The notes under the pieces were generated by a model that saw only the letters and a list, made by a program, of their open reading frames with translations, searched no databases and was not told the DNA's origin. A stretch of 38,677 nucleotides of DNA from Methanoregula sp. Its GTDB lineage: Archaea; Halobacteriota; Methanomicrobia; Methanomicrobiales; Methanospirillaceae. Both the position numbers and the translations under genes were made by a program. The DNA lies in NCBI GenBank assembly GCA_030651815.1, contig JAUSBW010000212.1:1-38677 (forward strand), read 5' to 3'. Positions 6,947 through 25,111 of this stretch are shown in pieces. Position 1 is the first letter of the stretch, and each line of letters opens with the position of its first letter.

Positions 6947-7276
6947 TCAGGTTATTGGTTTTGGGGGTTTCATCAGGGTGAATGCAATGACCATCCCGAC
7001 CACTGCAAGACCGAGCACATAGGGAAATACCCCGATATAGGACCCTGTCGACGTCTTGATGAACCCTGCCAGCTGCGGTCCGGCAATCGCGCCGGCACCA
7101 TATGCAAGGAAGACGACCCCGTAACACCTCGGGTAGTCGCAGGTGCCAAAATAACTGCCGGTGGTTGTCGGTGCAATGGCCAGCCAGCCTCCGAGACATC
7201 CCCAGAGTATGGCAAAGGCAAGGATGTACACCGGTACAATCGTGATCTGCCACATCAGCAGCGAGGCCAGAGATAT
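6947..7276 (-). pseudogene. C-terminal fragment of an MFS transporter (oxalate/formate antiporter-like)
   Basis: About 102 residues from an internal ATG. They match the last three or four membrane segments of OFA-family MFS carriers: GGWLAIAPTTTGSYFGT, then YGVVFLAYGAGAIAGPQLAG, and a final hydrophobic helix ending K-P-P-K-P. The family normally has about 400 residues and 12 membrane segments. Upstream the frame stays open but loses all resemblance, so the first eight or nine helices are missing. A transport function is very unlikely. Confidence 0.7.
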
Positions 7277-7653
7277 TGGATTGATGATAATAAAAAAGAA
7301 ATGGAATGTTTGGGAATCATTGTGCGATCTTATTGGGCTGTCCTTATAATCGTGATACCCAGGTTTTTTTAAAGGATTGAAGCCTTTGCCGGTAAGAGGG
7401 AAAAAAAATTCGTTAAACTTGAGCTGCTTCCGTTACTTTTTCCTCTTTCCTGATATCCTTGACAATATCATGAAATACCCAAATATATAAACCAAAAAGA
7501 ATGGACATACAAATAAGATTATATATACTGGTGAAGTCGCTCAACAATATAAAAAATTGGTGCAATTATCGATAGCAAAATTATATTTACTGCCGTAATT
7601 GCAACGTCATCGCTTAATTCAAATGCATCTTTTTTTCAGCATTTTTTCCATAA
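7277..7653. other. Gene-poor stretch with a possible 32-codon membrane peptide
   Basis: 377 bases between the MFS remnant and actP. On the minus strand an ATG at 7508 opens a 32-codon frame to TAA at 7413-7415. Its product begins MSILFGLYIWVFHDIVKDI and ends in KEEKVTEAAQV, that is, one hydrophobic segment and a charged tail; the frame is open further upstream without an ATG. It could be the tail of a lost membrane protein or chance. Nothing else in the stretch is recognisable. Confidence 0.3.
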
Positions 7654-9144
7654 TTACACGTCTGTCGCTGTCGCTTCCTCCTCTTTCCCCATCAGCGATA
7701 ACCCGATTACCACGGCAAATCCAAGAGGGATGCTGACGATGCCCGGATTATTCAGCGGGAAGATTGCAGCCTTGCCCATCACCGTCGGACTGATGGCAAT
7801 CAGTCCAATTGAGACCACAAGACCGGTGAGGATGCTCCAGATGATCGCGCGCGCGCTTGTCCTCTTCCAGAAGAGCGTACAGATCAGGGCGGGGATATTG
7901 GCTGAAGCTGCGATGGCAAATGCCAGACCCACAAGGAACGCAACGTTCTGGCCCTTTGCCAGGATTCCCAAGGCGATCGCAATGACTCCAACTGCCACAG
8001 CGGTCATCTTGGAGATCTTCAGGGACCGGGCCTCATCGGGCTTATTGCCGAGCACCTCAGTGTAGATATCATGGGCTATAGCTCCTGCTGATGCGATAAT
8101 CAGCCCGGCCACGGTTCCCAGAATAGTTGCAAAGGCGATCGAGGCGATAAAGGCAAAGAAGAGCTCACCGCCGAGAACCTCTGCCAGTAGCGGAGCAGCG
8201 AGATTCTGGTTTGTCGGGTCCGTGGTGAGGAAATAGTTTGCCCCCAGTCCGAGGAACAGGGTAAGGATATAGAAGATCCCAATTGTGATGATGGCGATCA
8301 CCGTTGATTTGCGGGCATCTGCGGGGCTCGGCACCGTAAAGTACCGGATCAGGATGTGTGGCAATGCTGCAGTACCCAGGATCAATGCGATGGCCAGCGA
8401 TGCAAAGTCCAGCGGATTCTTGTAATACATACCCGGGGACATGAAAGCGCTCCCGCTAACGGTACCTCCCTGTGGGAGTGTGACCGCCGGATTTTCAATA
8501 AAGTGCGTGATAAACTCGACAGGACCCATGCCGACTGCCATCAGGACGCCTATCGTGAGAGCGAATGCGGCGATCAGGAGCAGGAAACCCTTGATGAACT
8601 GGACATACGTTGTGGATACCATGCCCGCGGTTGCGACGATCATGATCACAATGATGCCAACCATGATCACGCCCACTTCATACGGCAGGCCGATCAATGG
8701 CTGGACGATGGAACCCGCACCCACCATCTGGGGGATCAGGTAGAATATGCTGACAACCAGTGCCGAGATTGCTGCCATAAGGCGGACCCGTTTGTCCTTG
8801 AACTTGCTCATCAGCGCGTCGCCGAAGGTGTACTTCCCGATTCGGCGGAGCGGCTCTGCGATGATCAGCAGGGCGATGATCCATCCTGCCAGGAAACCAA
8901 TGGAATACATGAACCCATCGAACCCGAAGAATGCGATCATCCCGGCAATGCCAAGGAATGAAGCCGCGCTCAGGTAATCACCGGCAAAGGCAACGCCGTT
9001 CACGAACCACTTGACATTGCCTCCTGCCGCATAGAAATGGCTGGCGGTACGCACTTGTCTTGCCGCCCACAATGAGATCGCCAGCGTTGATATGGTAATC
9101 AGACAGAATATGCCAAATGCCAGTGGCTGGAATTCATAGGCCAT
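7654..9144 (-). CDS. actP: Cation/acetate symporter, ActP-like (SSS family)
   Basis: 496 residues from the ATG at 9144, preceded by GGAGGTG; a longer frame to 9237 would run through the upstream gene and is not needed. It is a sodium:solute symporter with about 13 hydrophobic segments. Visible family features: FYAAGGNVKWFVNGVAFAGD then YLSAASFLGIAG in the first two segments, S-T-T-Y-V-Q-F-I-K-G in the middle and G-x-V-A-G-L-I-I-A-S-A-G-A later. These match the ActP acetate/glycolate branch. It starts 5 bases after the stop of the UspA/DUF485-like gene, a pairing that mirrors yjcH-actP in bacteria. Together with the neighbouring acs it would supply acetate for activation. Substrate is inferred from family and context. 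Confidence 0.85.
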   Translation of the reverse strand: MAYEFQPLAFGIFCLITISTLAISLWAARQVRTASHFYAAGGNVKWFVNGVAFAGDYLSAASFLGIAGMIAFFGFDGFMYSIGFLAGWIIALLIIAEPLRRIGKYTFGDALMSKFKDKRVRLMAAISALVVSIFYLIPQMVGAGSIVQPLIGLPYEVGVIMVGIIVIMIVATAGMVSTTYVQFIKGFLLLIAAFALTIGVLMAVGMGPVEFITHFIENPAVTLPQGGTVSGSAFMSPGMYYKNPLDFASLAIALILGTAALPHILIRYFTVPSPADARKSTVIAIITIGIFYILTLFLGLGANYFLTTDPTNQNLAAPLLAEVLGGELFFAFIASIAFATILGTVAGLIIASAGAIAHDIYTEVLGNKPDEARSLKISKMTAVAVGVIAIALGILAKGQNVAFLVGLAFAIAASANIPALICTLFWKRTSARAIIWSILTGLVVSIGLIAISPTVMGKAAIFPLNNPGIVSIPLGFAVVIGLSLMGKEEEATATDV

Positions 9145-9148
9145 ACGA

Positions 9149-9874
9149 TTACACCTCCGTTCCCTGTTCAAAGCGCCCGGCGTACCAGCTGTAAAAGAGC
9201 GCAATGACGATCGCTCCGATGATGATGACCATCCCAAAGACGATCGCTACATTCATTCCGAGCAGGCGTGCGCTCATTATGTCACGGAAATAGGTTCCGC
9301 CGAGGGTAAATGCACCATAGCCGAGCAGGTATATTGTAAGAAGTCCTATGGCCATCCTGAATAATCTGCCATTAGGCTCAACGGCAAGTACCGGTACTTT
9401 CTTGGGGTGCGCGATGACACGTACCAGCTCCAGGATCTCTGTTAATTCCTCGGGGTTCGGTTTGATCATCCAGACAGAGCAGGTGGCAGTCTTGAGGACT
9501 GCTTCTGCAACATCGCCCAGCATCAGTCCATCAAGGCCCTTCGGATTTGTGCTCCCCATAATAATCAGGTCTGCCGAGATCTCCTCGGAGGCCCTGACAA
9601 TCTCTCCTGCAACCGGTCCCGATAGGTAGATCACGCGTGCGGGGATACCCGATTTGGATGCATAGTCAACAGCGAAGGTAACGAAATCAATGGGGCATCG
9701 CCTGTCCAGTGCCAGATCTTCTGCAATCCTCTCAATGTTGACAAGAGGCGTTTGCTCACTGACGTACATAATCACCAGCTCCCCATTCTTTTCGCGAGCG
9801 TGCTCGACTGCCTTTTTCGTGGCCACCAGCGAGGGCATAGACCCATCAACGGCCAACAATACGGTATACGTCAT
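9149..9874 (-). CDS. Universal stress protein fused to a DUF485-like membrane domain
   Basis: 241 residues. Residues 1-140 are a UspA domain: VLLAVDGS at the start, ADLIIMGSTNPKGLDGLMLG near 103-122, and CSVWMIK at the end. The usual ATP-binding G-x9-G-S/T is altered (LGDV where G-S is usual). Residues about 170-241 contain two membrane segments with an R-L-L-G-M-N-V-A loop and a YSWYAGRFEQG tail, resembling the small DUF485/DUF4212 partner of solute symporters. It lies directly upstream of actP with a 4-base gap. It may act as a regulatory small subunit that senses nucleotide or stress state for the symporter. The fusion is seen; its role is inferred. Confidence 0.75.
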   Translation of the reverse strand: MTYTVLLAVDGSMPSLVATKKAVEHAREKNGELVIMYVSEQTPLVNIERIAEDLALDRRCPIDFVTFAVDYASKSGIPARVIYLSGPVAGEIVRASEEISADLIIMGSTNPKGLDGLMLGDVAEAVLKTATCSVWMIKPNPEELTEILELVRVIAHPKKVPVLAVEPNGRLFRMAIGLLTIYLLGYGAFTLGGTYFRDIMSARLLGMNVAIVFGMVIIIGAIVIALFYSWYAGRFEQGTEV

Positions 9875-10075: not shown

Positions 10076-11971
10076 TTATTCCTCCAGCGTTGAGATGTCG
10101 CCGGGGTCCATACCCATCTCCTTGGCTTTTAAGACGCGGCGCATGATCTTGCCGCTCCGGGTCTTGGGCAGCTTGTCGACAAATTCGATCTCCTGGGGGA
10201 CTGCGATCGGCCCCAGTGTCATGCGCACGTGATACATCAGATCCTGTTTGAGTTTGTCGCCGGGTGAATTGCCCACGCGGAGGATCACAAATGCCTTGAT
10301 CGAGTTGCCCTTCAGAACGTCAGGTTTCCCGATGACTGCCGATTCTGCAACCGCGTGGTGGGAAACCAGCGAGCTCTCAACTTCTGCAGTGCCGATATTG
10401 TGGCCCGCAACCACGATGATGTCATCAGAACGGCCGAGGATCATGATGTAACCGTCCTTGCCTTTCACCGCGAGATCGCCGACTGTATAGACGCCTTTGA
10501 TAGTTTCCCAGTATACACGGTACCGTGCATCATCCTTCCAGACCGTCCGGAGCATAGCTGGCCACGGGGACTTGACAACAAGGAGCCCCCCGGTTCCGGG
10601 CTGGACAGAGTTCCCGTCTTTATCAACCACATCCGCTTCCACACCGGGAATAGGTTTGCCGGCAAAACCCGGCCGCATGGGCTCACCGATCATCGTGGTG
10701 ATCATCTGCATACCGGTCTCGGTCTGCCACCAGGTGTCGAGGATTGGGATCTTGTCCTTTCCAATGACATGATAATACCACTCGAACGCTTCAGGATTCA
10801 GGGGTTCCCCGACCGATCCGATGATCCGCAGAGAGCTTAAGTTGTATTTGTTTGGCCATGTCTCACCCAGTTTCATGAACATCCGGATCGCTGTCGGTGC
10901 TGTGTAGAAGATAGTGATCTTCTGCTCTTCGATTAAGCTCCAGTAGCTGCCTGCATCCGGATAGTCCGGAGTGAGCTCGGACATAAATACCGTCGCGCCT
11001 ACTGCAAGCGGGCCGTATACAATGTAACTGTGGCCCGTGATCCAGCCCGGATCTGCAGTACACCAGAAGATATCCTGGTCCTTCATGTCGAATACGTATT
11101 TGCTGGTGTAGTAGGTTCCGACCATGTAACCGGCGCAGGTGTGCACGATCCCTTTGGGCTTGCCTGTGGATCCGCTGGTATAGAGCGTGAAGAGTGGATC
11201 TTCTGCATCCATGACTTCAACCGGGCATTCCTGGGATGCACTCTCCATTATTTCGTTGAAATCCAGTTCAAGACCGGGTCTCAGATCAACCTGCGGATCC
11301 TGCCGCCTGAGCACAATGACGTGCTCGACCGACGGTGCATTGATCAGTGCCTCCTCGACAATCGATTTCAGCTGGATCGTTTTACCGCGCCGCATACTGA
11401 TATCTGCGGTGATGACGACCTTGGCAGAAGCATCCTGGATGCGCAAATTGAGCGCTGCCGGACCAAAACCTCCAAAAACCACGCTGTGGACAGCACCGAT
11501 GCGGGCGCAGGCAAGCATGGCGATCACCTGTTCCGGCACGAGCGGCATGTAGATGCAGACACGGTCGCCTTTCTCCACACCGAGCTTTTTGAGTGCGTTT
11601 GCAAACCGCATCACTTTGCTGAGCAGCTGCTGGTAGGTAAAGATGCGTTCTGCACCCTTCTCCCCCCGCCAGATGAGTGCTGCCTTGTTGCGCCGCTGGT
11701 TTTTGACATGGCGGTCAAGACAGTTTGCGGTAATGTTAAGCTGTGCGTTGATGAACCACTTTGCATACGGGTAGTTCCACTCCTTCACCGCACTCCACGG
11801 CCGAATCCACTCCAGCTCCGAGGCCATTTTGTCCCAGAACCCATCAGGGTCAGCCAGGAATTCATCGTATGCTTTCTGGTAGTCACCCATCCAGGAATTT
11901 TGTTTGTATTTAGCATCCGGCGTGTAGGATTTCTCGTTTTCCACTAACTTGACATCAAATGATTCCTTCAT
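10076..11971 (-). CDS. acs: Acetyl-CoA synthetase (AMP-forming)
   Basis: 631 residues, full length for the family. It converts acetate, ATP and CoA to acetyl-CoA, AMP and pyrophosphate. Motifs: N-terminal W-I-R-P-W domain, P-loop [18 protein letters not shown] in the acetate pocket region, [12 protein letters not shown], and [11 protein letters not shown] with the catalytic lysine (about K608) that is the usual acetylation target. AGGTGG lies before the ATG. It has its own roughly 380-base leader, near-duplicated in front of cdhA. Acs is the high-affinity route of acetate activation; with ActP and CODH/ACS nearby it supports acetate assimilation or acetate breakdown. Confidence 0.96.
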
Positions 11972-12328
11972 TCTTTTTCCACCTTTTTTGGTTCTGGTTA
12001 TACCAGATACTCGCAGGGGTTGCCCTTAAACCGGATGTCATCACATCCAGCCGGCATCCCTTATGTTCAGAGTTGTGAAAATGACCTCTCTTCCACAATT
12101 GATACCTTACAGCGAGTACGGTTCAATTATACAAGGGTTCACTGAGGAACCAGATCATCACAGGCTGCAGAAGTCCAAAGACTTCCTCAATACTTTTACA
12201 GGAAGAGAATTACAATGATTCTCTTTTTACTGCACTGCTACACTGCCATCTTTCGGATTCATCCCCCCGCTGAGATATCTATCATGATTAATCATTGTAA
12301 TTAAAAAAAGGTTTTGGTTGTAAATATC
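11901..12328 (-). repeat. Direct repeat copy 1: acs leader and first ~23 codons
   Basis: This stretch covers the whole acs upstream region and its first codons. It aligns end to end with 30743-31176 in the same orientation, at roughly three quarters identity by eye. Shared landmarks on the plus strand are TAAATATC at the far end, the TGATTAATCA palindrome, AGAGAAT-N7-ATTCTCT, GGTTCAATT, TATACCAGATACT and GATTCCTTCATTCTTTT over the start codon. The two copies bracket the complete cdh/hydrogenase cluster. Confidence 0.85.
12170..12301 (-). promoter_or_regulatory. acs promoter/leader elements
   Basis: Three structures lie in the leader. (1) A 12-base element at 12209-12220 (ATTACAATGATT) recurs as an exact inverted copy at 12290-12301. 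(2) AGAGAAT-N7-ATTCTCT spans 12204-12224. (3) A hairpin has arms 12170-12175 and 12180-12185 (GAAGTC/GACTTC). On the minus strand an A/T-rich TTTTTTTAATTACA at about 12294-12309 is the best TATA-box candidate. Transcription would then begin near 12270, leaving an untranslated leader of about 300 bases before acs. All three structures have counterparts before cdhA, and the hairpin shows a paired base change between copies. Confidence 0.5.
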
Positions 12329-12353
12329 TCCTGTTACAGAATCACTAAAAAAT

Positions 12354-13124
12354 TTATTTTTTGCCATATCCTGCTTTTTCCATAAGATGCTGAACTGACT
12401 GGTATGCAGGCGAATCATCAGGAACATCAAGGAGCGATCTTCCCGCAATTACGGATTCCTGCACCTGATCATCAAACATAATTTTTCCCAGGTAGTTTTG
12501 TCCGGTTTTTTCCCGGGCAACCTGTTCCAGATTTTCCGGGAACAGACAACCGCCAACAACATAAAAATGATCGAACGCGATACCGACATCATGGGCAATG
12601 CGATACGCCCGTTTCACATTCTCAAATGATTTGTGTGAAGGGCCTATCACATCAAAAATATCATTCACGCGGGTAGTGATCTTACGGTTCAGGTGTTCGA
12701 GTCCGGCAGGAGAATCGATCAGCACATACTGGTAATTCCTGGTGAGCGTTAAAAGAGCGCCTTTGAGCGCCGCATTGGGAAGGCAATAGCACCCTTCAAT
12801 CCATTTGGTGCCGACTGCAATCAGATCAAAGGCATCACCCTCATACAATCCCCGCTCAAGAACGGTGGCCTCAATCCGCTGAGTGGGGGGTATCCCGATT
12901 GTCGTCCCGCCTTTTTGTATAAACGTTTCCGTGACCAGTTCGGAGATGCTTTTAACTCCTTCACGTTCGAGATCCACACCTACCATCTCGGCAAGATTCT
13001 GATCCGGGTCGAGATCGACAAGAAGGACAGGGGCATCCCCGCGTGCAATAAAATATTTTGTCATCAGGGCAACAAAACTTGTTTTACCCGTTCCGCCTCG
13101 TCCAACAGTGACTAGTGTTTTCAT
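12354..13124 (-). CDS. CooC-like ATPase, second paralogue
   Basis: 256 residues, MinD/CooC-type P-loop ATPase. It begins TLVTVGRGGTGKTS, a deviant Walker A (G-R-G-G-T-G-K-T), has LLVDLDPDQNLAEMVG (Walker A' region) and VLIDSPAGLEHLNR (Walker B). EGCYCLPN gives a C-x-C pair in the place where CooC proteins bind nickel at their dimer interface. It starts 21 bases after the other CooC gene and is the last gene of the cluster. Two CooC paralogues would suit two nickel sites to be filled: the C-cluster of CdhA and the A-cluster of CdhC. Which serves which is not known from sequence. Confidence 0.85.
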   Translation of the reverse strand: MKTLVTVGRGGTGKTSFVALMTKYFIARGDAPVLLVDLDPDQNLAEMVGVDLEREGVKSISELVTETFIQKGGTTIGIPPTQRIEATVLERGLYEGDAFDLIAVGTKWIEGCYCLPNAALKGALLTLTRNYQYVLIDSPAGLEHLNRKITTRVNDIFDVIGPSHKSFENVKRAYRIAHDVGIAFDHFYVVGGCLFPENLEQVAREKTGQNYLGKIMFDDQVQESVIAGRSLLDVPDDSPAYQSVQHLMEKAGYGKK

Positions 13125-13145
13125 GATTTTCCTCCTTCTTTTGTA

Positions 13146-13943
13146 TCACGTATTGCCTTTTGCCGGTTTGACGAGTTCAATCCGGTGCCCGATCTCCTCA
13201 ATTATCCGGATGGCAGGTGTGTTCTCAAATACCATCACTGAACTGCCGGCAATGCCTCCTGCCATGACTGCGGGATCAAATGGCACGATACCCACAATCG
13301 GAATATTGTGTTCCTGTGCAAACATTTTGATAATGGTTTCTTCAGTGATATTTGTTATACGGTTACCTGCCAGTTCAACACGGGGGATGCCGGCATCCAG
13401 AGCCATACGGACAATTGTTCCGGCAGTGGTGAGCGATTTTTTGTTTGCATCACTTACCACAATCATCATGTCGACACCTTCTGCTGTCCCCCTGCCGAGA
13501 TGCTCAATGCCTGCTTCCATATCGAGCACCACCGCCTCATCACGGTCGATTACGAGGTGGCGGAGCAGGGCGCGGATGACACTGTTTGATGCGCAGGTGC
13601 ACCCGGAACCCATGGACTTCACGGTGCCCATCACCAGCAGGTGCACACCTGACGGGGTCGGGATCGCATAGTCCCGGACGACATCATCGACAGAAAAGTT
13701 CAGGTTGTAGACGCCGGGAAATGCGGTGCCGGTTTTTAGTTTGATCAGGCGCTCATTTTCAGATACCGGAACGATCGCATCTGCTGCATCCTGATCGAAC
13801 CCGAGCGAGATGGCAAGATTGGGCGAAGGGTCTGCATCGATCGCAATAGTTTTGTATCCGGACCGTGCAAGCGACCACGCCAGTCCGCTTGCCATCAGAG
13901 TTTTGCCGACACCACCTTTTCCGGCAATTGCTATCTTCATCAT
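13146..13943 (-). CDS. cooC: CooC-type CODH nickel-insertion ATPase
   Basis: 264-265 residues; ATG codons at 13943 and 13940 are both possible starts. It has AGKGGVGKT (deviant Walker A, residues 7-15), AIDADPSPNLAISLG, and MGSGCTCASN with C115-x-C117, the spacing of the nickel-binding pair of CooC. VVLDMEAGIEHLGRGT is the Walker B region. It is a cytoplasmic dimeric ATPase that inserts nickel into the CODH C-cluster. In Methanosarcina cooC sits inside the cdh operon; here it lies at the far end, behind the hydrogenase and its protease, with a 119-base gap upstream. Confidence 0.9.
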   Translation of the reverse strand: MMKIAIAGKGGVGKTLMASGLAWSLARSGYKTIAIDADPSPNLAISLGFDQDAADAIVPVSENERLIKLKTGTAFPGVYNLNFSVDDVVRDYAIPTPSGVHLLVMGTVKSMGSGCTCASNSVIRALLRHLVIDRDEAVVLDMEAGIEHLGRGTAEGVDMMIVVSDANKKSLTTAGTIVRMALDAGIPRVELAGNRITNITEETIIKMFAQEHNIPIVGIVPFDPAVMAGGIAGSSVMVFENTPAIRIIEEIGHRIELVKPAKGNT

Positions 13944-14062
13944 CAGTAACTTCCTTTAATTGATATAATGTGCCTTTTCATTAACTCTCACTTCGGGATA
14001 CCATTCGAAAAATTTTAGATGCGCTATAGAGCGAACTTCCGGGATCTTCGGGTTATGTGGAT

Positions 14063-14554
14063 TCATGTTCCTGAAGCTGAAACGATTACATCTGCATATT
14101 CTTTTAGAAATTTTTCAGCAACTGGCGTAAGGCCGGGCATATGAGAGATACAGGCAGACTGCACACCGAACAAAAACACCGCTGCGCCCGTCTCCTGCCC
14201 TAAATAGTCCATGACCACGTCCAGCGAAAAGGTGTGCGTGCTCATGCCATACCGCATAATATCTGCTGATTCAATGATTCTCGCATGGCCGGGGCTCGCC
14301 CCGAAATCGAGCGCATCCAAAAAAACGATTACGGATGGGTTAAGGCGTTTGATGGCCCCGGTAAAATTCTCAGGGGTGCTACCCGCGTCAAGCGCGTGGG
14401 ACACCCGGCCATTCAGTAAGTCGATGAGCACCGGCCCGATGCCATCATCGCCTCTCATCCGGTTTCCAACGCCCACGAACACGATCCGGTCAGGTTTTAC
14501 TGACCTTAACCTGCTCATGAGTTCAGTTTTCAATGAGTCAAAGGCTCCAGTCAT
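14063..14554 (-). CDS. hycI: [NiFe]-hydrogenase maturation endopeptidase, HycI type
   Basis: 163 residues, peptidase family M52. GVGNRMRGDDGIGP is the conserved nickel-site motif (GxGNxLxGDDGxG), VFLDALDFGASPG carries the second Asp, and STHTFSLD carries the conserved His. It removes the C-terminal tail of the hydrogenase large subunit after nickel has been inserted. The large subunit in this cluster has such a tail: 21 residues after DPCYSCTDR. It lies 33 bases after the antiporter-like subunit gene. Confidence 0.93.
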   Translation of the reverse strand: MTGAFDSLKTELMSRLRSVKPDRIVFVGVGNRMRGDDGIGPVLIDLLNGRVSHALDAGSTPENFTGAIKRLNPSVIVFLDALDFGASPGHARIIESADIMRYGMSTHTFSLDVVMDYLGQETGAAVFLFGVQSACISHMPGLTPVAEKFLKEYADVIVSASGT

Positions 14555-14587
14555 TTTAAGTTCCGTTAACCCGCTGCAATATAGTAA

Positions 14588-16057
14588 TCATATCCTTAAC
14601 TGGAATAACACATCTGCCGTATATTCGAGAACCCCCGATAGCAGGTCCGGGTAGATGCCGATGATGATGCATAAACTAACCATAATCAGAATCGGCAGCA
14701 TCATGCAGACGGGCGGGTCCCTGACATTCCTGAACTCCTCTTTTTGCTTTCCCATGAACATCACGTAAAACACATGTATCAGACAGATGAAGGTAAGCGC
14801 ACTCGTAATCCATCCCAGAATAGCGAAAATGGTGAAGTGCACGCCAAAAACAGAAAAGATGACGGGATAACCAGCCTGGACAGAGCCCTCGTAAATGAGC
14901 TCCTTGCTCACGAAACCGTTAAGGAACGGTACGCCTGACATAGCAAGGGAAGCAATCAAAAAACTGGCGGCCGTCAGAGGCATCACCTTGCCAAGCCCGC
15001 CCATCTTATGGATCTGTCTGGTGTTCACGCGAAGGATAAGGGCACCCGTAATTAAGAATAAACAGCCCTTAAACAACATGTGGTTGGTGATGTGGAACAA
15101 TGCACCGTAAATGGCGGTGGGAGCAGCCAGCCCGAATCCCAGAATGATATAGCCCATCTGGCTGATGCTATGCCATGCCAGTAAACGCTTGATATCCTCA
15201 GATAGCAGGGCCATGATGACACCTATTAACATGCTGAGGATGCCGAAAGTGGTAACTATGAGGATGAGCGTTCCGGCGCCCGACATCAGATAGAACGGAT
15301 AGATGCACTTGACCATTGCTATGACGCCGGCCTTGAGGAGGATGCCGGACATCGTAGCGCTGATAGGAGGCGGAGCCTCGGAATGCGCCGGAGGCAGCCA
15401 GATACCACTCAAAGGCAATAAACCGGCCTTGGTGCCGAAACCGAAAAAGAAGAGCATGGCCAATAAAAACATAGTATTCTGGCTCATGCTACTGATATTC
15501 AATAAATATAAGTCCAGGGTGCCGGTCTCATTATAGAGAATGAAGGCACCAATGACCACCAGAATAACTTCGATGATGCTGATGGCCAGGTAAATGTATG
15601 TTGCTTTGATAGCCTGTTTCGTCCTGCCAAATAAGATTAAAACAGCGCTGGTGATTGTGGCCGCTTCCAGGAAGACGAGCATGACAATAACGTTATATGT
15701 GCACGCAAGGCCGCTCATCATGCCCATGAGCAGGAAATACATGATGAAATACGTGTTATCGTAATGCGTTTTATCTTTATAAACAAAGGAATAGAAGATG
15801 ACCAGCGCTCCGATGAACGCTACAAGACAGGATATAAAAATACCGGGGGCATCCAATACGATGGGGCCATATGACAGTGGATGAATGATATTCATCTGTA
15901 AGGCCATAAAATAGGACACGTTCAGCACGAATAGAACGACCGCAAATCCCATGAGAAACACGCGCTGGATCTTCTCCGGATATCTCCCGAGGAAATACGT
16001 GAGCAGGGCCCCAACGAGGGGTAAGATTACAGGCATGAGCGCCAGATATTCATACAT
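14588..16057 (-). CDS. Antiporter-like membrane subunit of group 4 hydrogenase (NuoL/M/N, HyfB/MrpD-like)
   Basis: 489 residues with about 14 membrane segments. It has the proton-pump signature of this family: FLEAATITSAVLILFGR with the conserved glutamate in helix 5, FGFGTKAGLLPLSGIWLPPA then HSEAPPPISA with the helix 7 lysine, L-S-E-D-I-K-R-L-L-A-W-H-S-I-S-Q-M-G-Y, and HITNHMLFKGCLFL. It would couple electron flow in the hydrogenase to proton or sodium translocation. Only one such subunit is encoded, as in Ech and CooM-type enzymes, whereas Hyf has three. It begins 90 bases after the small-subunit gene, the largest gap in the hydrogenase block. Confidence 0.9.
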   Translation of the reverse strand: MYEYLALMPVILPLVGALLTYFLGRYPEKIQRVFLMGFAVVLFVLNVSYFMALQMNIIHPLSYGPIVLDAPGIFISCLVAFIGALVIFYSFVYKDKTHYDNTYFIMYFLLMGMMSGLACTYNVIVMLVFLEAATITSAVLILFGRTKQAIKATYIYLAISIIEVILVVIGAFILYNETGTLDLYLLNISSMSQNTMFLLAMLFFFGFGTKAGLLPLSGIWLPPAHSEAPPPISATMSGILLKAGVIAMVKCIYPFYLMSGAGTLILIVTTFGILSMLIGVIMALLSEDIKRLLAWHSISQMGYIILGFGLAAPTAIYGALFHITNHMLFKGCLFLITGALILRVNTRQIHKMGGLGKVMPLTAASFLIASLAMSGVPFLNGFVSKELIYEGSVQAGYPVIFSVFGVHFTIFAILGWITSALTFICLIHVFYVMFMGKQKEEFRNVRDPPVCMMLPILIMVSLCIIIGIYPDLLSGVLEYTADVLFQLRI

Positions 16058-16147
16058 TGTTATACTCCAGAATCTGTATTTAAGTCAGTGAGGACGGTAG
16101 TCATGAGTTGTTTTGGCAGAAAATGATCCATTTGCTACACCGGTTTA

Positions 16148-16573
16148 TCAGGAATCAAATTTTCTCATCACTTTCAATATGCCATCGATAATGGTTTCCG
16201 GTTTCGGCGGGCACCCGGGTATCTTCACGTCAACCGGGATGATCTTTTCGACGGGGCCGGCTATGGAATAGTTCTCATTGTCAATGAAAATGCCGCATGA
16301 GCAACCGCATGCACCCACGGCGATGACACGTTTTGGTTCGGGTGTCTGGGCATAGACGCGTTCAAGGAACGGCTTTGTATGGAGAGGAACGGGGCCTGTC
16401 ACTAATAAAATGTCGGCACACCTGGGCGATGCGACAAATTTAACGCCCAGCCTCTCCAGGTCATATCGGGGACTCATTAAGGCTACTATCTCGATATCGC
16501 ATCCAAGACATCCTCCAGCGTGCACATGGTAAATCCATGGAGACTGCTTGATGAAGCTGTTCAAAAGACTCAT
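16148..16573 (-). CDS. Group 4 [NiFe]-hydrogenase small subunit (NuoB/HycG/EchC-like)
   Basis: 141 residues from the ATG at 16573, which overlaps the stop of the preceding gene (ATGA). It contains the proximal [4Fe-4S] cluster ligands GGCLGCD, GACGCSCG and PGCPP in the order typical of NuoB-like subunits, plus DILLVTGPVP. The short length without a signal peptide is normal for group 4 enzymes, which face the cytoplasm. It passes electrons between the NiFe site in the large subunit and the HycF-like ferredoxin subunit. Confidence 0.92.
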   Translation of the reverse strand: MSLLNSFIKQSPWIYHVHAGGCLGCDIEIVALMSPRYDLERLGVKFVASPRCADILLVTGPVPLHTKPFLERVYAQTPEPKRVIAVGACGCSCGIFIDNENYSIAGPVEKIIPVDVKIPGCPPKPETIIDGILKVMRKFDS

Positions 16574-17259
16574 GTGAACTTCCTCGGGTGCGTATTCCAC
16601 TCCAGACTGTGCATCCGCCTGCACGAAATACACGTCGTCAGGTATAGTTCCATGTCCTTCTTAACGATAGCAGCTGTTTCCGGCTTCAGGTTCTTTAAGA
16701 CCCTTTCCATAATAACATTCAGATGTTTTTCGGTGACAGGCATAACCTCCCCGCAAACAGTGCAGCGCTGCAATTTCAGCGTTGTATCGATGGCAGGGTT
16801 CTTCTCTTCGGAGCCATACGACACGTTAATCTGCTCTGTATACTTAAAGGATACTTCCGAATCCTCGTCCGAACCGCGTAAAGACCGGACACATGTATCA
16901 CCCACATCCCCTGTCGTTTTTAATAATTCTGAACGGAATTTCTTTTCCTCTTCTGTATCTGGCTCAATGGTCAGTTCTAATGCATGCTCCGGGCATACAT
17001 CGGCGCAACGGCCACAGAAAATACATCGCAGGCCGTCAATAGAGATCGTTCTTTCAGTGCCAATATCCGTGATGTTCGTAGCGCCACTGGAGCAGCGCTC
17101 GTTGCAGGCGCCGCACCCCGTGCATTTATCAGCGTCGCGCCTCGGCATCCACCGGAAATTTTTTGCTACGAATCCAAAAGTCTCTCTCACCGTAACGGGA
17201 TTACGGAAGACGTTTGTGATTAATTCGCCGAAGGCCTTGAATTTGCCTATAGTATTCAT
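16570..17259 (-). CDS. Group 4 hydrogenase polyferredoxin subunit (HycF/HyfH/NuoI-like)
   Basis: 229 residues from the ATG at 17259, overlapping the HycD-like stop by ATGA; a longer frame to 17454 would lie inside the upstream gene. It has two 4Fe-4S motifs, CTGCGACNERC (about residues 45-55) and CIFCGRCADVCP. A linker of about 80 residues follows, then a C-terminal pair CTVCG and CISCRRMH, a zinc- or iron-binding tail also seen in HycF and HyfH. It links soluble electron carriers to the small subunit. The C-terminal Cys pairs favour a formate-hydrogenlyase-like relative over Ech. Confidence 0.9.
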   Translation of the reverse strand: MNTIGKFKAFGELITNVFRNPVTVRETFGFVAKNFRWMPRRDADKCTGCGACNERCSSGATNITDIGTERTISIDGLRCIFCGRCADVCPEHALELTIEPDTEEEKKFRSELLKTTGDVGDTCVRSLRGSDEDSEVSFKYTEQINVSYGSEEKNPAIDTTLKLQRCTVCGEVMPVTEKHLNVIMERVLKNLKPETAAIVKKDMELYLTTCISCRRMHSLEWNTHPRKFT

Positions 17260-18185
17260 AGCACATACCTCCAGAGCACTGCCCATCCGATGGCAAGCAC
17301 CGATACAAGCAGGGGGATTTTGAAAAGCCACCGGGTCGCCTGATCTATTCTGAAACGGGCGAACAGGGAATTCATAAAACCGATTAACACGCCTGTGGCG
17401 ATAACCCCCGCCAGAAAGATAACCCAGGCCAAAGCACCCGATGATGGTATCCACAGAAACAAGTCCACGAACAATGCGATGAGTACGAATACCATAATGA
17501 TCCTGGCAGTCTCCAGCACGCCGAGCAGCTTGCCACCATATTCAGTTGTAAGACCGTTCACGATCTCAGTATCGGCCTCTGGTATGTCAAATGGCTTGAT
17601 GTGGAGCTTTACGATGATTGACAGGAGGACTGCCAGTGCCGCGAAAGGATTGATTAAAATGTTAAAGCCCATCATTTGCTGGATGGATAGTGTATCAAAA
17701 GTGATGGCTAACGCGAAGGTACCGAGGATAAAGGGTATCTCGTTGGCAAGCATAAGATCGATCTCCCTGACGCCCCCTATGGCAGAAAACAGTGAAGCGC
17801 TCGAGATGCCGCCCATGATAATGAAGAGGATCTCGCCCATCAGCAGATAGAATAGCACCACCAGACTGAATGAATAGTCGAATGATATGCCGGCTACCGG
17901 CACGAACAGCGTAGCCAGCACGGCGCACATGAGGGCCAATATCGGCCCGGCTATGAAAAATGGTGTCGCCGTGGAAGGTATGATGGTCTGCTTGGAGAAC
18001 AGCTTGATGATGTCATACAATGGCTGAAGGACTTTGCTCCGGTTGATGTCATGCCACCTGTCGGGCAGCCATATCAGCGGCCCCCGCCGGGATTGTACTC
18101 TGGCAGAGATCTTGCGCAGCTTAAATGAAAGCAGGATCCCAATGCTGAAGGCGATAACAGGATTCAGCCATGCCGCATCGATCAT
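17256..18185 (-). CDS. Group 4 hydrogenase membrane subunit (NuoH/HycD/EchB-like)
   Basis: 309 residues with about eight membrane segments. It shows the conserved quinone-site-like loops of this family: KISARVQSRRGP and PFDIPEADTEIVNGLTTEYG then GKLLG. It anchors the hydrophilic arm to the membrane and forms the start of the ion path. Its start overlaps the large-subunit stop by four bases and its own stop overlaps the ferredoxin-subunit start, so the genes are translationally coupled. Confidence 0.92.
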   Translation of the reverse strand: MIDAAWLNPVIAFSIGILLSFKLRKISARVQSRRGPLIWLPDRWHDINRSKVLQPLYDIIKLFSKQTIIPSTATPFFIAGPILALMCAVLATLFVPVAGISFDYSFSLVVLFYLLMGEILFIIMGGISSASLFSAIGGVREIDLMLANEIPFILGTFALAITFDTLSIQQMMGFNILINPFAALAVLLSIIVKLHIKPFDIPEADTEIVNGLTTEYGGKLLGVLETARIIMVFVLIALFVDLFLWIPSSGALAWVIFLAGVIATGVLIGFMNSLFARFRIDQATRWLFKIPLLVSVLAIGWAVLWRYVL

Positions 18186-19774
18186 CGCCTGCCTCCCAGT
18201 GACCGCATGTCGACAATGCTTTGCTCTTTACCTTTGAAGATCGTCACTCTGTCCGTGCAGGAGTAGCAGGGGTCAACACTGCTGATGATTGCGGGCACGT
18301 CAGCCAGCCAGCAGCCATGTATCAGCTCGAGCATGATACGGGCGTTAATGAAGGTAGGTACTCTGATGCGTACAAAGGCTGGCGTATTAGTGCCGTTCGA
18401 GACCACATGGTAGAGTAATTCGCCTCTTGGCGCCTCGCTCCTGGAGATAGTTTCACCGCATGGCAACTCGTTTACTTTGGCTGCGAGCGAAGATGGCGCA
18501 ATCTTTATTTTATCACAGCATTGTTCGCAGATATGCATGGACATGAGCGTCTCTCTCATCTTCACTTTTATGCGGGCCAGGCAATCGCACCCATTCTCCG
18601 TCACGATGTCCCAGTCAACATCTTCGTAGGCGGCGAAGGGCGAGTTCTTACGCACGTCTATCCTCAGCCCACTGCCTCTGGCTACAGGACCGATGGCCCC
18701 GGATTTCAGGGCATTTTCCCGCTTAAGGATGCCCACATCCTTAAGCCTGCCCATGAGCACGTCATTCGACTGGCACTGATCGAAGAACTGGGGCACCGAT
18801 TTTTTCATAATCTTTAATTTAGAGAGAATAAAATCGGTTTGATTCTCGGTAATGTCTCTGCGGATGCCACCTAATGCTATCAGCCCATGGGTAACCCGCT
18901 GGCCGGACACGACCTCAAGGCAGTCCTGCATCTCTTCCCGTATCCGTATCGCGTGCATGAGCATGGTGCGGAATCCGGTCAGGTCGCCGATCAGGCCAAT
19001 GGACAAGAGGTGGCTCTGGATACGCTCCATTTCGCATAATAAAGTCCTGGCCATCTGTGCCTTTTGGGGCACTTCAACAGCCGCCAGATCCTCCACGGAC
19101 ATGGCAAAGGATAAGGAATGGTGCGTATTACAAATGCCGCATACACGCTCCGCTAAAAAAAGGTCCTTGTAATAGTCGCGCCGCTCCATAAGTTTGATGA
19201 TGCCCCTGTGGTTGAAACCCAGCTTCAGGTCGGCCTTCCTGACGACCTCATCCTCAACGGACATTTTTAAATAATTACTTTCGATGAACGCCGGGTGATA
19301 CGGGCCATACGGTATCGTCGTCAGAGGCAGTGTAACGATGTTATCCTTGAGAGGTTTTACCGGAGGAGCCGTGTTGATTCTCTCTGTATCAGGGTGGGCT
19401 ACGGGCTTTTCCCCAGTGTAAATTTCCTTCCAGTCCAACGGCAGCCACAGGTGCGTGGGGTTCGGGTGGCCCTCTACCGTAATGCCTAAAAACTCGATGA
19501 GCTCCCGTTCAGACCAGTCTGCCTGGCTCGTGACAGGCGTGACCGAATGGATAACGGGGTTCTTCCTGTCCAGATACGTCCTCAATATGGTATGCTGGCT
19601 TGGCTCGTGATGGTCGAAGCAGAAGTAATAGTTGACCTGAATGCCCCGGACTCCCATGTCCACGCCGGAGGTGTAGATCATCCGGGCTCCCTTTTCCAGG
19701 AGATCGCTCACCTCTTCTCCAAGGGTATCTGCCTTGATCTCCCTGATGATGAGATTCAGGTGTGGCTTACTCAT
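18182..19774 (-). CDS. Group 4 [NiFe]-hydrogenase large subunit with fused NuoC-like domain (HycE/HyfG-like)
   Basis: 530 residues. Residues 1-120 are a NuoC (30-kDa) domain with FCFDHHEPSQH and ADWSERELIEFLGI; residues 140-530 are the NuoD-like catalytic part. Both nickel-binding motifs are complete: ERVCGIC (C212, C215) and DPCYSCTDR (C503, C506). This is therefore a true hydrogenase, not a complex I remnant. A 21-residue tail follows R509, the expected target of the HycI protease encoded downstream. The fusion and tail are as in HycE of formate hydrogenlyase; CooH and EchE lack the fusion. No formate dehydrogenase gene is present; the cdh genes upstream take its place. Confidence 0.94.
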   Translation of the reverse strand: MSKPHLNLIIREIKADTLGEEVSDLLEKGARMIYTSGVDMGVRGIQVNYYFCFDHHEPSQHTILRTYLDRKNPVIHSVTPVTSQADWSERELIEFLGITVEGHPNPTHLWLPLDWKEIYTGEKPVAHPDTERINTAPPVKPLKDNIVTLPLTTIPYGPYHPAFIESNYLKMSVEDEVVRKADLKLGFNHRGIIKLMERRDYYKDLFLAERVCGICNTHHSLSFAMSVEDLAAVEVPQKAQMARTLLCEMERIQSHLLSIGLIGDLTGFRTMLMHAIRIREEMQDCLEVVSGQRVTHGLIALGGIRRDITENQTDFILSKLKIMKKSVPQFFDQCQSNDVLMGRLKDVGILKRENALKSGAIGPVARGSGLRIDVRKNSPFAAYEDVDWDIVTENGCDCLARIKVKMRETLMSMHICEQCCDKIKIAPSSLAAKVNELPCGETISRSEAPRGELLYHVVSNGTNTPAFVRIRVPTFINARIMLELIHGCWLADVPAIISSVDPCYSCTDRVTIFKGKEQSIVDMRSLGGRR

Positions 19775-20048
19775 CTTTCACACTCCCGAATGGTGTTTTT
19801 GGAGTGTACATCTCTTCCTGATTGAGGTAGATCCCGCTCGCGCCGCAATTAAAATTCTCATCCGTATTCCTGTACTCAGGGAATAATGATGGGATGATTA
19901 CCGAGAAGAAAATGTAGAAAGATACCAGCGACGCCAGTTCTGCGAAGAGGAAAAAGATGATAGTCATACCACTTTCGTTCGAAAGGAATAAAGTCCCCAG
20001 CACGCTGATGACAAGGATAAATATGGCGATGATGAAGTACGGTTTCAT
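19767..20048 (-). CDS. Small membrane protein of the hydrogenase cluster
   Basis: 93 residues with two hydrophobic segments (about 4-22 and 27-54) and a soluble tail. The tail contains ENFNCGASGIYLNQEEMYTP and then KTPFGS. This resembles the end of HyfB/HycC-type subunits, where a C-G pair is followed by M-x-Y-T and S-F. It may therefore be a detached C-terminal piece of the antiporter-like subunit. It overlaps hdrB upstream by 4 bases and the large-subunit gene downstream by 8, so it is certainly part of the block. Function is otherwise unknown. Confidence 0.7.
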   Translation of the reverse strand: MKPYFIIAIFILVISVLGTLFLSNESGMTIIFFLFAELASLVSFYIFFSVIIPSLFPEYRNTDENFNCGASGIYLNQEEMYTPKTPFGSVKDE

Positions 20049-20962
20049 TGTACGCTGGTCTCCAGTTTTTCTATGAGCGTATCGACCGGTGCCGTCCGCA
20101 TGTAGCGCATGCCGATATCGTCCGGCCTGAGGCCGTACGAGATTGCCAGCAGCTCTGCCAGATGGATGACTGGCACGTCGAAATCGTATCCGTCAGTCTC
20201 CTTTAAGGTTTTCGAGGCTCTCTCGAACTGGTCGTAGCATCCCGCACATACGAGAACCAGTGCGTCGACGTTTTGGGCCTTGACTGAGTCGAACTTCCGC
20301 TTGGCCCGGTCATAGGTGGCAAACTCCCTGTCGGCGAGGTTACACTGCAGACCGCAGCACATACGTTCGCAGTCATAGGGCACGACCTCATCCACCAGGG
20401 CTTCAGTCAATTCGGTGAAATACCGGACCAGGTGGCCGTCTTCGAAGATACGCATATGACATCCGGGATGGATGGCAACTCTGATGTGGATCTTTTTGGC
20501 CTCTCTTCTGATGCGCTCAATCCCTACCTCCTCATATAATACCTCCAGCAGGTGCCGGATACGTATGTCGGCTTCGTAGTGTTTACCCGCAGCCGCCAGG
20601 TATTGATTCACCATTGCCAGGTCTTCGGGGTTCTCCTTCAGCACCTTATTGGCCTCGTATAGCGTAACATAGCATCCATTGCATGAGACCAGGACATCAC
20701 GGCCTGCACTCTCGGCCTGTAATAAATTGTAAGATGCGAGCGTCAGCCAGACGCGCCTGTCGACCGATATCCAGACTCCGGCTCTTGGACAGCATCCGGA
20801 CTTCGGCAGATATTCCAAGTCAATGCCCAGCCCTGGCAGGGTCTTCATGATGGCCGACTCGGCCCAGGGCATCTTCGCCGGCATAACACAGCCAAGAAAA
20901 TGCGCATATTTGGACCTGACTGCAGCCGGATTAACTTTATTTACAATTGGCAGATCAGTCAT
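20045..20962 (-). CDS. hdrB: Heterodisulfide reductase subunit B-like (two CCG domains)
   Basis: 305 residues from the ATG at 20962; a longer frame to 21121 would lie in the upstream gene. Both cysteine-rich CCG motifs are complete: C25, C57-C58, C94-x2-C97 and C168, C202-C203, C239-x2-C242. In HdrB these bind two non-cubane [4Fe-4S] clusters that reduce the CoM-S-S-CoB disulfide. No hdrA gene is present, and the place of hdrC is taken by a short protein without cysteines. It sits between a ferredoxin gene and hydrogenase genes, all overlapping. A role as terminal electron acceptor module in a membrane hydrogenase complex is inference; another disulfide or sulfur substrate is possible. Confidence 0.88.
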   Translation of the reverse strand: MTDLPIVNKVNPAAVRSKYAHFLGCVMPAKMPWAESAIMKTLPGLGIDLEYLPKSGCCPRAGVWISVDRRVWLTLASYNLLQAESAGRDVLVSCNGCYVTLYEANKVLKENPEDLAMVNQYLAAAGKHYEADIRIRHLLEVLYEEVGIERIRREAKKIHIRVAIHPGCHMRIFEDGHLVRYFTELTEALVDEVVPYDCERMCCGLQCNLADREFATYDRAKRKFDSVKAQNVDALVLVCAGCYDQFERASKTLKETDGYDFDVPVIHLAELLAISYGLRPDDIGMRYMRTAPVDTLIEKLETSVQ

Positions 20963-21230
20963 TAAACCGGTACTCCATTTTCTCCAGGTCCAGGCCCATG
21001 TTTTTGTCGATCTCCATCGCCTTAACGATCTTCTGGATATCCTCGACCGCTTCATGATACCTGTGAGCAGTTGGCGGTATGGGATCCAGCCCGGCTTTCT
21101 TCCTGACCTCCATGAGCTCATCAGTCACCGGATAAAGCAGCCCGATGGAGAAGTGCCTGATGAGCTGTGGCTTCACTGATGATGGCAGCGGTATTTTCAC
21201 GGGCCGCCGCCACGGGTATAACTCCTTCAT
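20955..21230 (-). CDS. HdrC-like stub protein lacking Fe-S cysteines
   Basis: 91 residues from the ATG at 21230, overlapping the ferredoxin stop by ATGA; its end overlaps the hdrB start by 8 bases. It has no cysteine. The middle part (PQLIRHFSIGLLYPVTDELM, then EVRKKAGLDPIPP) resembles the helical region that follows the two ferredoxin motifs in HdrC, and the order stub-hdrB is the normal hdrC-hdrB order. The cluster-binding part may have been handed to the separate ferredoxin upstream. It could act as a docking piece between that ferredoxin and HdrB. The HdrC resemblance is weak and read by eye. Confidence 0.6.
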   Translation of the reverse strand: MKELYPWRRPVKIPLPSSVKPQLIRHFSIGLLYPVTDELMEVRKKAGLDPIPPTAHRYHEAVEDIQKIVKAMEIDKNMGLDLEKMEYRFND

Positions 21231-21712
21231 CTTTTCAGTCTCCCTACGATTTCCTTGCCTTCCTCTCTCGATACGAATTTTATTGCCTTGGCTGAGCACA
21301 CTTTGATGCAGTCAGGATCCCCGCCGCACATGTCGCACTTTGCCATGGCTTTCAAGCCTCGTTGTATTTGCGGTATGGAGATGGGGCAGGCCCACATGCA
21401 TGCCTTGCAACCGATGCACAGCATTTTATCTATCGTCACAAAGCCCGTAGCTTCGTCCTTACAGATCGCGTCCACAGGGCATACTGCCATGCACATGGGG
21501 TCCTTGCAATGCTGACAATACACCCTGACGAACTCGCTATTCTGTCCGTTAATGACCTTGCAGAGTGAAAGGTCATAACTGTAAGTCTGATAATTCTTAA
21601 AAGAACAGGCTGTCATGCACTGCCTGCAGCCCGTGCACAGGTCCGGGTCATGGACGATTACCTTAGTCAAAGGATTACCGGAGTATTTCGCAATGTCAGT
21701 GTCAGCAGTCAT
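21227..21712 (-). CDS. CooF/HycB-like four-cluster ferredoxin
   Basis: 161 residues with four cysteine groups: CTGCRQCMTAC, CQHCKDPMCMAVCP, CIGCKACMWACP and CDMCGGDPDCIKVC. This is the CooF/HycB/DmsB pattern, predicted to hold four [4Fe-4S] clusters. CooF carries electrons from CODH to the membrane hydrogenase in carboxydotrophs, and HycB does the same from formate dehydrogenase. Here the gene lies between the CODH/ACS activase and the HdrB/hydrogenase genes, overlapping both neighbours by ATGA, which supports the role of electron link. Direct partner unproven. Confidence 0.9.
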   Translation of the reverse strand: MTADTDIAKYSGNPLTKVIVHDPDLCTGCRQCMTACSFKNYQTYSYDLSLCKVINGQNSEFVRVYCQHCKDPMCMAVCPVDAICKDEATGFVTIDKMLCIGCKACMWACPISIPQIQRGLKAMAKCDMCGGDPDCIKVCSAKAIKFVSREEGKEIVGRLKR

Positions 21713-23562
21713 TTTTTGTGTTCCTTGTAACTGTCAGGAAACAGCTCACGTTTTCCGGGGATATACAGTGCTGCAGAATATTCTTCCATGAAATCGGTAT
21801 CCACTAAAAGATCAATGTAGACCATGTCCAGGGCAACCTTTTCTGCCATGATCCGGTACTCGCGCGAGACGAGGGTGGCATATGCTCCTGAAAGGGACCC
21901 ATTGCCCAGGGGGTGAAATGCAGCATCTGGAAATTCCGGAAGAATTCCGAACCGCACCGTATTGCCGATATCGGTATAGGTGCCAAATGCCCCTGAAAGA
22001 TAGACATGCCGGATATCAGTAACGGCAATCCTGTATTTCCCCATGAGCACACCGATAGCTCCGCATGCGGCAGCTTTCGAATCCATAAGATAATCAACGT
22101 CCTGCTGGGTGAACACCAGGTCGCGCCCGGTGGCAGAAGCAGATGCCGGGATGAGCACATATTCCAGTCCTTCGGATCCGTTCCGGACCCGCGGGTGCCG
22201 GGAATTGAGTTTGCCGGCAAAATCGAGGGCACTGGATGCAACCATGGCGACTGCAGCATCAATAATTCCCGAACCACAGATACCCCGGGGGGGCACGTTC
22301 CCGATGGTTGAACAGATGGTCTCTGCCGTCTCAGGATCAAAGCGGACGTGCTCAATCGCACCGTTCATCGCCCGCATGCCGCACGTAATGCCCCCCCCCT
22401 CAAACGCAGGCCCGGATGCGCAGGAGACCGATGCCATCCAGTCTTTGTTCCCAAGAATGATCTCCCCGTTGGTTCCGAGATCGATAAGAAGGGATAGATC
22501 TTCAGAGGCATGCATCCCCGACGCGATCACATCTCCGATGGCATCCCCTCCCACAAACCGACTGACATTGGGGAGGCAGTACACCTGTGCATCCGGGTGC
22601 AGGCAAAGTCCCAGTTCTTTTGCGCTTTTGATGAGGGGAGTGCGCGGGATCTGTGCGTTTGCCATCTCCAGATAGTGCGGTTCGATCCCGCAGAACAGGT
22701 GGTGCATCACCGTGTTTCCGGCAACACATATGTCCACGATGTCTGTTTTGCCGATACCTGCTGCACCGGAAATCTGAGTGATAACCGTGTCAATACTTTC
22801 CCTCGCTGCCTTCTGCATCGTGGCGAGCCCCTCTGGTGAATCAGCAAACCCGATTCTTGTAATCAGTTCCTCACCATAGGTAATCTGACGGTTCATGGTT
22901 GATCCGGTCTCCACGATCTCACCGGTTTGCAGATTGACAAGGCATCCGACAACAGTGGTTGTACCAAGATCTATGGCAACCCCGTATAGTGGTCGTGCAC
23001 TGGCAGCAGGCTCAACGGCAATTATTTTAGGGGGTGTAAATACGTGTGAGATAGTGGCGATAAGTGGTCCGGTTGTTGTATTGAGCCTGTGGTAAACCTG
23101 TTCACACGTGCGAGGCCGCGGCCCCAAATATCCCGCGAGACGGATTGACTGCGAGGCAAACGGCAACCCTTCCGAGGGGGAAACCTCCACCGGGTAATTC
23201 ACAACCGCAGGAGAGATCGTGGTGATATTCATTTTATTGGAGATCAGGATTTGCGGCAGAACGATCCTGCTCTCCACGGGTATGGTAAATCCAGCATCCG
23301 CGGTTAGTGCCACCTGACAGGCATAATGGTATCCCTGTGCAATTTCCTCCGGTGTGAAATGGGAAGCGCCCAGCTGGGAGGTGGCGGTACATTTTCCTTT
23401 CGTGAGTATGACCCGGCACTTCCGGCACAGTCCCTGTCCGCCGCAGATTGCCTCAATGGCAATGCCCGCAGTCCGCATCGCATCCAGAAGCGGCGTATCA
23501 ACCGGAACAGTCAGTACCTTGTTCATCGGCTGGAATGTTACAATGATTGTTTGTTCAGTCAT
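21709..23562 (-). CDS. Corrinoid-activating ASKHA protein with 2Fe-2S domain (RACo/AcsV-like)
   Basis: 617 residues. The N-terminal 2Fe-2S ferredoxin domain has ligands C40, C46, C49 and C82. From about residue 190 comes the ASKHA ATPase core: YGVAIDLGTTTVVGCLVNL, a middle N-R-Q-I-T-Y-G-E-E-L-I-T-R-I, and LLIDLGTNGEIILG (DUF4445). Such proteins use ATP to return oxidised Co(II) corrinoid to Co(I); AcsV/RACo does so for the corrinoid iron-sulfur protein of acetogens. It lies 76 bases after cdhE, which encodes the corrinoid subunit. This bacterial-style activase inside an archaeal cdh operon is notable. It overlaps the ferredoxin gene by ATGA. Confidence 0.9.
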   Translation of the reverse strand: MTEQTIIVTFQPMNKVLTVPVDTPLLDAMRTAGIAIEAICGGQGLCRKCRVILTKGKCTATSQLGASHFTPEEIAQGYHYACQVALTADAGFTIPVESRIVLPQILISNKMNITTISPAVVNYPVEVSPSEGLPFASQSIRLAGYLGPRPRTCEQVYHRLNTTTGPLIATISHVFTPPKIIAVEPAASARPLYGVAIDLGTTTVVGCLVNLQTGEIVETGSTMNRQITYGEELITRIGFADSPEGLATMQKAARESIDTVITQISGAAGIGKTDIVDICVAGNTVMHHLFCGIEPHYLEMANAQIPRTPLIKSAKELGLCLHPDAQVYCLPNVSRFVGGDAIGDVIASGMHASEDLSLLIDLGTNGEIILGNKDWMASVSCASGPAFEGGGITCGMRAMNGAIEHVRFDPETAETICSTIGNVPPRGICGSGIIDAAVAMVASSALDFAGKLNSRHPRVRNGSEGLEYVLIPASASATGRDLVFTQQDVDYLMDSKAAACGAIGVLMGKYRIAVTDIRHVYLSGAFGTYTDIGNTVRFGILPEFPDAAFHPLGNGSLSGAYATLVSREYRIMAEKVALDMVYIDLLVDTDFMEEYSAALYIPGKRELFPDSYKEHKK

Positions 23563-25096: not shown

Positions 25097-25111
25097 GCTT
25101 ATTCCCTCCTG

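Follow-up and report, generated by a model that had tools for sequence, protein, structure and literature searches.

The Usp-DUF485 fusion is a real archaeal protein family, in which a universal stress (Usp) domain is joined to a two-helix membrane domain and the gene is invariably followed by that of an SSF symporter. We describe it here from a Methanoregula sp. contig (JAUSBW010000212.1), analysed over a stretch of 38,677 nucleotides that we call the window. The open reading frame at 9149-9874 of the window is a real gene, and its product belongs to both the Usp and the DUF485 families. The fusion probably serves as an accessory subunit of an acetate-type SSF symporter, with the Usp domain as a built-in module. 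The features of the window are as follows.

6947..7255, minus strand: C-terminal remnant of a native MFS transporter (79% identical to the stretch 311-416 of an MFS protein of 421 aa at locus L106)
7654..9144, minus strand: ActP/MctC-like SSF symporter, 496 aa (PF00474, 290.7 bits); its ATG lies 4 nt past the fusion stop
9149..9874, minus strand: Usp-DUF485 fusion gene, 241 aa, ATG start (ORF and Pfam; 14 further homologous loci)
9164..9358, minus strand: DUF485 two-helix membrane domain, residues 173-237 (PF04341; helices in the model)
9461..9865, minus strand: Usp domain, residues 4-138 (PF00582; best Foldseek match TeaD, 3hgm)
9512..9556, minus strand: changed nucleotide motif, residues 107-121 (alignments and motif table)
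10076..11971, minus strand: acs, AMP-forming acetate-CoA ligase (NCBIfam AcsA, 869.9 bits, over cut-off; native to the genus)
11969-12330, minus strand: long leader of acs, ~360 nt, repeated at 30811-31176 (minus strand) upstream of the cdh cluster
12354-13124 and 13146-13943, minus strand: two ATPase genes, read as CooC-like
14063-14554, minus strand: HycI-type protease
14588-19774, minus strand: complex-I/hydrogenase-like gene set
20045-21121, minus strand: HdrB-like protein
21709-23562, minus strand: AcsV-like protein
23639-25096, minus strand: CdhE, among CODH/ACS genes

The fusion family and its symporter

The window protein scores 83.1 bits with the Usp model (E 3.8e-23; Pfam cut-off 24) and 37.1 bits with the DUF485 model (E 3.1e-9; cut-off 28). 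The preliminary description of this DNA had likened the C-terminal helices to the small subunit of a symporter and had called for a search of this part against DUF485 and DUF4212. The likeness holds: the 83 C-terminal residues scored alone reach 40.4 bits with DUF485, and a DUF4212 identity was rejected because the window fusion gave no match to that Pfam family at E<=1. Within the window's own genome, the fusion is the sole DUF485 match at E<=1. Hydropathy of the DUF485 part peaks at 1.58 and 2.72, and an AlphaFold2 model of the fusion alone (14 sequences; mean pLDDT 78.4, pTM 0.58) predicts a Usp alpha/beta domain, a linker of low confidence (residues 158-168) and long helices at residues 169-195 and 209-236. 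When this model is compared to the PDB with Foldseek, TeaD (3hgm, E 5e-10) ranks first, followed by other Usps; given the many similar Usps, the first rank is not specific. A sequence match for the DUF485 part was not found in the PDB.

Searched with PF04341, 392 genomes of the phylum yielded seven with matches at E<=1e-4. Among these, Usp-DUF485 fusions are found in the window and in L039, L040 and L042; in L037 and L038 the Usp, DUF485 and SSF parts are three separate adjoining genes, and L041 has a weak PF04341 match with the Usp domain absent from the ORF scanned. A fusion profile run against 392 genomes of the phylum matched 40 genomes at E<=1e-25, with four full-length fusions at the top (299-369 bits), the two split loci next (153 and 119 bits) and a remainder at or below 105 bits that is nearly all limited to the Usp part. 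A scan of one genome per species then gave 17 loci: 13 archaeal full-length fusions and four bacterial matches, all four of which are tandem Usp proteins and were set aside. The 13 archaeal fusions come mostly from Methanomassiliicoccales, and also from Methanohalarchaeum, SCG-AAA382B04 and 'Methanomicrobia DTU008'. Together with G107 and the window itself, the archaeal survey for which the preliminary description had asked therefore comprises 15 distinct full-length loci (G117 and L048 are the same record, as are G108 and L051). Usp and DUF485 both matched in 15/15 (E<=0.05), and three other family members scored singly gave 22.5-27.8 bits with DUF485, just below the cut-off of 28. In the class to which G107 belongs, one of four genomes has the fusion. 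A plasmid search with the fusion found none at E<=1e-12, which is a weak test since Usp-only matches would score near that limit. With 15 distinct full-length loci, and with native flanks around the window copy, the fusion is not a product of chance or of assembly.

Besides a match of the helices to symporter partners, linkage to symporters elsewhere had been set beforehand as the test on which the description would stand or fall, and the linkage is complete. An SSF gene lies directly 3' of the fusion, on the same strand, in 15/15 loci, with a spacing that ranges from a 4-nt overlap (-4) to +12 nt. In the control, SSF genes were found within ~1.5 kb of free Usps in 0/48 loci, and the scan detected SSF at all 22 loci known to hold it. 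Many bacteria have DUF485 next to ActP, and its function is given as unknown in Pfam to this day. The preliminary description had started from this bacterial arrangement, and our comparison bears it out: an unfused DUF485 gene lies just 5' of the symporter in 3/3 annotated bacterial loci (three further records carry no annotation). The gene acs adjoins the fusion in 2/15 loci only, the window and L048, with several flanks being short.

The fusions fall into two groups, clade A (the window, G107, L046 and L047) and clade B (11 loci). In a midpoint-rooted symporter tree with long branches, the clade-A symporters group with ActP-like proteins of bacteria, and those of clade B are placed beside the symporters of the two archaeal loci with split genes; the window symporter is 42-47% identical to bacterial symporters. 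In the Usp tree, which samples free Usps of one order only, the fused and split Usps come together (100/99), separate from 18 free Usps of the order. This grouping is consistent with a single, old association between a Usp lineage and the symporter system. Clade A is separate from clade B and the split Usps in the same tree, and either a single fusion with later splitting or two separate fusions could account for the sequences. One clade-B locus, L055, was left out of the Usp tree and of the identity comparison, and its symporter is in the symporter tree. As a side observation, L046 and L047, labelled Methanomassiliicoccales RumEn M1 and Methanomicrobia DTU008, have almost identical fusions and symporters (symporter branch lengths 0.035 and 0.046), so one of the two labels may be loose.

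The transporter slot behind acs

The genes around the fusion are arranged on the same strand in the order CODH/ACS genes, AcsV-like gene, HdrB-like gene, complex-I/hydrogenase-like set with the HycI-type protease, ATPases, acs, fusion and symporter. The contig is a genuine part of its genome, which is Methanoregula-like. We considered that it might be a mis-binned or chimeric piece of another archaeon, as the fusion and symporter are missing from the other sampled relatives (the symporter was found in 1/60, its own genome, and a search of 100 genomes showed no full-length fusion in the 99 others) and the genome has a contamination estimate of 3.14%. We give this explanation almost no credence. 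The tetranucleotide correlation of the window with its own contigs is 0.950 (0.854 for the fusion region alone), whereas the foreign loci tested give 0.17-0.68. Acs has matches in 59/60 relatives with up to 92% identity and CdhE in 44/60 with up to 78%, and the native acs flanks the fusion and symporter on one side, the native MFS remnant on the other.

This remnant lies beyond the fusion and symporter, and the window has no other part of the MFS protein than residues 311-416. The gene next to acs in relatives, on the same strand, encodes either a 421-aa MFS protein or a 196-aa AceTr protein and starts ~20-116 nt behind acs where the start is visible. We surveyed this slot in 40 acs copies, chosen from more than 100 places, with copies at contig ends excluded. 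The slot gene is a carrier in 29/29 orthologous acs loci of the genus (21 MFS, eight AceTr), and 0/11 other acs loci (seven from other families, four second copies in the genus) matched the four transporter queries. A slot MFS example is named as the L-lactate MFS transporter SfMCT (389 bits, cut-off 320) and a slot AceTr example as the acetate uptake transporter AceTr_1 (287 bits, cut-off 50). Because relatives hold a carrier behind acs and the window holds only the C-terminal remnant of an MFS, the fusion and symporter have likely replaced the native MFS carrier at this position. The acs slot also shows that carriers of acetate type, though unrelated, are exchanged within a single genus. The two genes would have been acquired jointly, and in taking the place of the MFS they would leave acetate uptake and acetate activation encoded adjacently. 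An AceTr-like gene, which shares 65% identity with the one in G010, comes next after the fusion and symporter in G107; L049 has a nearby MFS gene on the opposite strand, 49% identical to the slot MFS.

Support for the acetate link drawn in the preliminary description comes from acs as a neighbour, from the carrier slot that follows acs and from the AceTr gene beside fusion and symporter in G107, with acetate as the presumed substrate. The best NCBIfam models for the symporter are MctC (498 bits, cut-off 670) and ActP (467 bits, cut-off 750), and since both scores are below their cut-offs acetate is not certain as its substrate.

Several further features of this neighbourhood are recorded here in their own right. 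Between the symporter and the MFS remnant, a hydrophobic 50-aa ORF with a TTG start (7413-7565, minus strand) has no family over cut-off. Compared to G010 and G002, where both CooC-like genes are directly 5' of cdhA, the CODH/ACS cluster at 12354-31387 is rearranged: in the window the AcsV-like gene is followed by the hydrogenase/complex-I-like set, with HdrB-like and Fe-S proteins, and the CooC-like genes adjoin acs. The rearranged region could be an acetate-oriented energy island. In addition, the leader of acs is 81% identical across 360 nt to its copy upstream of the cdh cluster, which ends in ~24 acs codons and then a stop codon, with which a possible cdhA start overlaps. In G011, a further copy (the third) lies 5' of a second acs, beside an ORF read as transposase-like. 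Through the shared leader, acs and CODH/ACS may be controlled jointly. It folds better than shuffled sequences (z -3.98 and -2.48), has no Rfam match at gathering, and shows covariation at 4/100 predicted pairs (three sequences), too little for it to be classed as a structured RNA.

The nucleotide motif and the role of the Usp part

The preliminary description had also noted an N-terminal UspA domain with an altered nucleotide motif, which is what the alignments show. Measured against the ATP-binding motif G-2x-G-9x-G(S/T), the window Usp has Asn at the second Gly and Asp at the Ser/Thr position, and so lacks the motif of the ATP-binding subgroup; its N-terminal Asp is retained. In G107 these two positions are D and N, and in L046 and L047 they are S and S, so the second Gly is lost in 4/4 clade-A fusions. 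The motif G-2x-G-9x-GS is intact in 11/11 clade-B fusions (with that of L055, absent from the motif table, taken from the alignment) and in both split Usps, and the free Usps of the order are canonical in 18/18 shown (L008, L017 and L030 read by eye from their sequences). Low model confidence at the phosphate loop was dropped as a sign of lost ATP binding, because L052, a member with a canonical motif, dips likewise.

These substitutions make a loss of ATP binding likely in the window Usp. It is not proved, because the accessible part of one paper (PMC3673472) includes ATP or dAMP complexes of degenerate Usps, so that such proteins may still bind nucleotides, and finds the second Gly in only half of the solved Usp structures. 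The direct stress or ATP-state control of acetate uptake that the preliminary description had suggested has weak support, and with the motif damaged throughout the window's clade the ATP-state part becomes doubtful for this protein. Spelled out, that proposal would have the Usp domain bind a nucleotide, be it ATP, AMP or a cyclic one, and gate acetate uptake by the energy or stress state of the cell. The Usp fold with its retained N-terminal Asp, the canonical motif in clade B and the split Usps, and the nucleotide binding possible in degenerate Usps all speak for gating of this kind. We nevertheless regard it as unlikely, given the two altered phosphate-loop residues in the window, the loss of the second Gly across clade A, and the available text on Rv2623 (PMC2682197), in which ATP binding falls when the N-terminal Asp or the region of the first motif Gly is mutated. 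ATP-state sensing by the window copy itself is correspondingly improbable. Clade-B fusions may still bind nucleotide.

A damaged motif could also mean that the Usp part is a decaying vestige in clade A, with only the DUF485 part of importance to the symporter. By sequence identity the fusion evolves faster than its partner, the window and G107 being 47% identical in Usp and 45% in DUF485 against 76% in the symporter, as a vestige would lead one to expect. However, the same figures show the Usp part to be as well conserved as DUF485, the frame is open in 4/4 clade-A loci, and nearly all of the 26 columns that are invariant across the 15 loci lie within the Usp part. We consider a vestige quite improbable, and read the Usp part as likely a built-in regulatory or assembly subunit.

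Taken together, the domains, the invariable SSF linkage, the replaced MFS gene and the changed motif are best explained if the fusion is an accessory subunit of the symporter. The DUF485 helices would associate with the symporter inside the membrane, and the Usp domain would sit on the cytoplasmic N-terminus of the small subunit as a regulatory or assembly module for what is presumably acetate uptake, in a role that may be likened to that of the free Usp TeaD acting on the TRAP transporter TeaABC. Because phosphate-loop residues are changed in clade A, the window copy is unlikely to be an ATP sensor, and dimerisation, protein contact or another ligand would be a more probable function.

More tentatively, methanogenic archaea could possess a distinct class of SSF complex, whose DUF485 subunit has a built-in Usp regulator. 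In this possible scheme clade B would be nucleotide-sensing; in clade A, with its bacterial-type ActP, the phosphate loop would have been lost and the Usp would serve as a nucleotide-independent switch or docking face (e.g. for Acs or another Usp). The module would be mobile between archaea, and at the acs locus the whole of it would trade places with MFS and AceTr carriers. Archaeal Usps beside transporters have been noted since 2011, without a mechanism. A natural fusion, its split versions, and intact and damaged nucleotide sites now provide ready pairs with which to probe both the role of the small subunit and a possible control of acetate uptake by a Usp.

Comparison with known systems

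A literature search found no paper on a Usp-DUF485 fusion, with most subscription journals beyond its reach, so this is not proof of novelty. For haloarchaea, the literature already describes Usp genes next to those of SSF acetate transporters. In Haloferax volcanii, the accessible text of one study (PMC7746861) describes acs7, HVO_A0155 (a small hypothetical protein), ssf and uspA28 as one acetate-induced transcript, and reports that deletion of ssf cuts acetate uptake by 80%. Likewise, the part available to us of a genome comparison (PMC3102087) finds, in 7/10 haloarchaeal genomes, a UspA protein encoded after a putative acetate transporter of the SSS type and proposes a regulatory role. The likeness to the window is that Usp, SSF acetate transporter and Acs are encoded together. 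The difference, as far as these two sources were accessible, is that the haloarchaeal Usp has a gene of its own behind that of the symporter, whereas in the window the Usp is joined to DUF485 and precedes the symporter. Closer to our genus, a paper on a Methanoregula symbiont (PMC10579272) records, in its accessible portion, CODH/ACS and Acs together with a transporter for acetate, and assigns all of these an assimilatory role.

The bacterial acs-yjcH-actP operon, as given in the available text of PMC6498577, has the same order of acs, DUF485 and SSF; it differs in that no Usp domain is present in the bacterial loci read. TeaD of Halomonas elongata, which modulates TeaABC according to the accessible part of PMC9006882, resembles the window protein in that it is a Usp dedicated to one system of solute uptake, and is its best fold match. 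However, TeaD is free, has ATP bound and serves a TRAP transporter, whereas the window Usp is membrane-anchored, has a changed motif and goes with an SSF symporter. Finally, archaeal Usps are known as fusions to APC permeases, FNT channels and Na+/H+ exchangers (PMC3102087, PMC12159084, both as far as available). These share with the window protein a Usp covalently joined to a transport system; in the portions of these reports that we could consult, the Usp is carried on the transporter itself, whereas here it is carried on a small accessory subunit.
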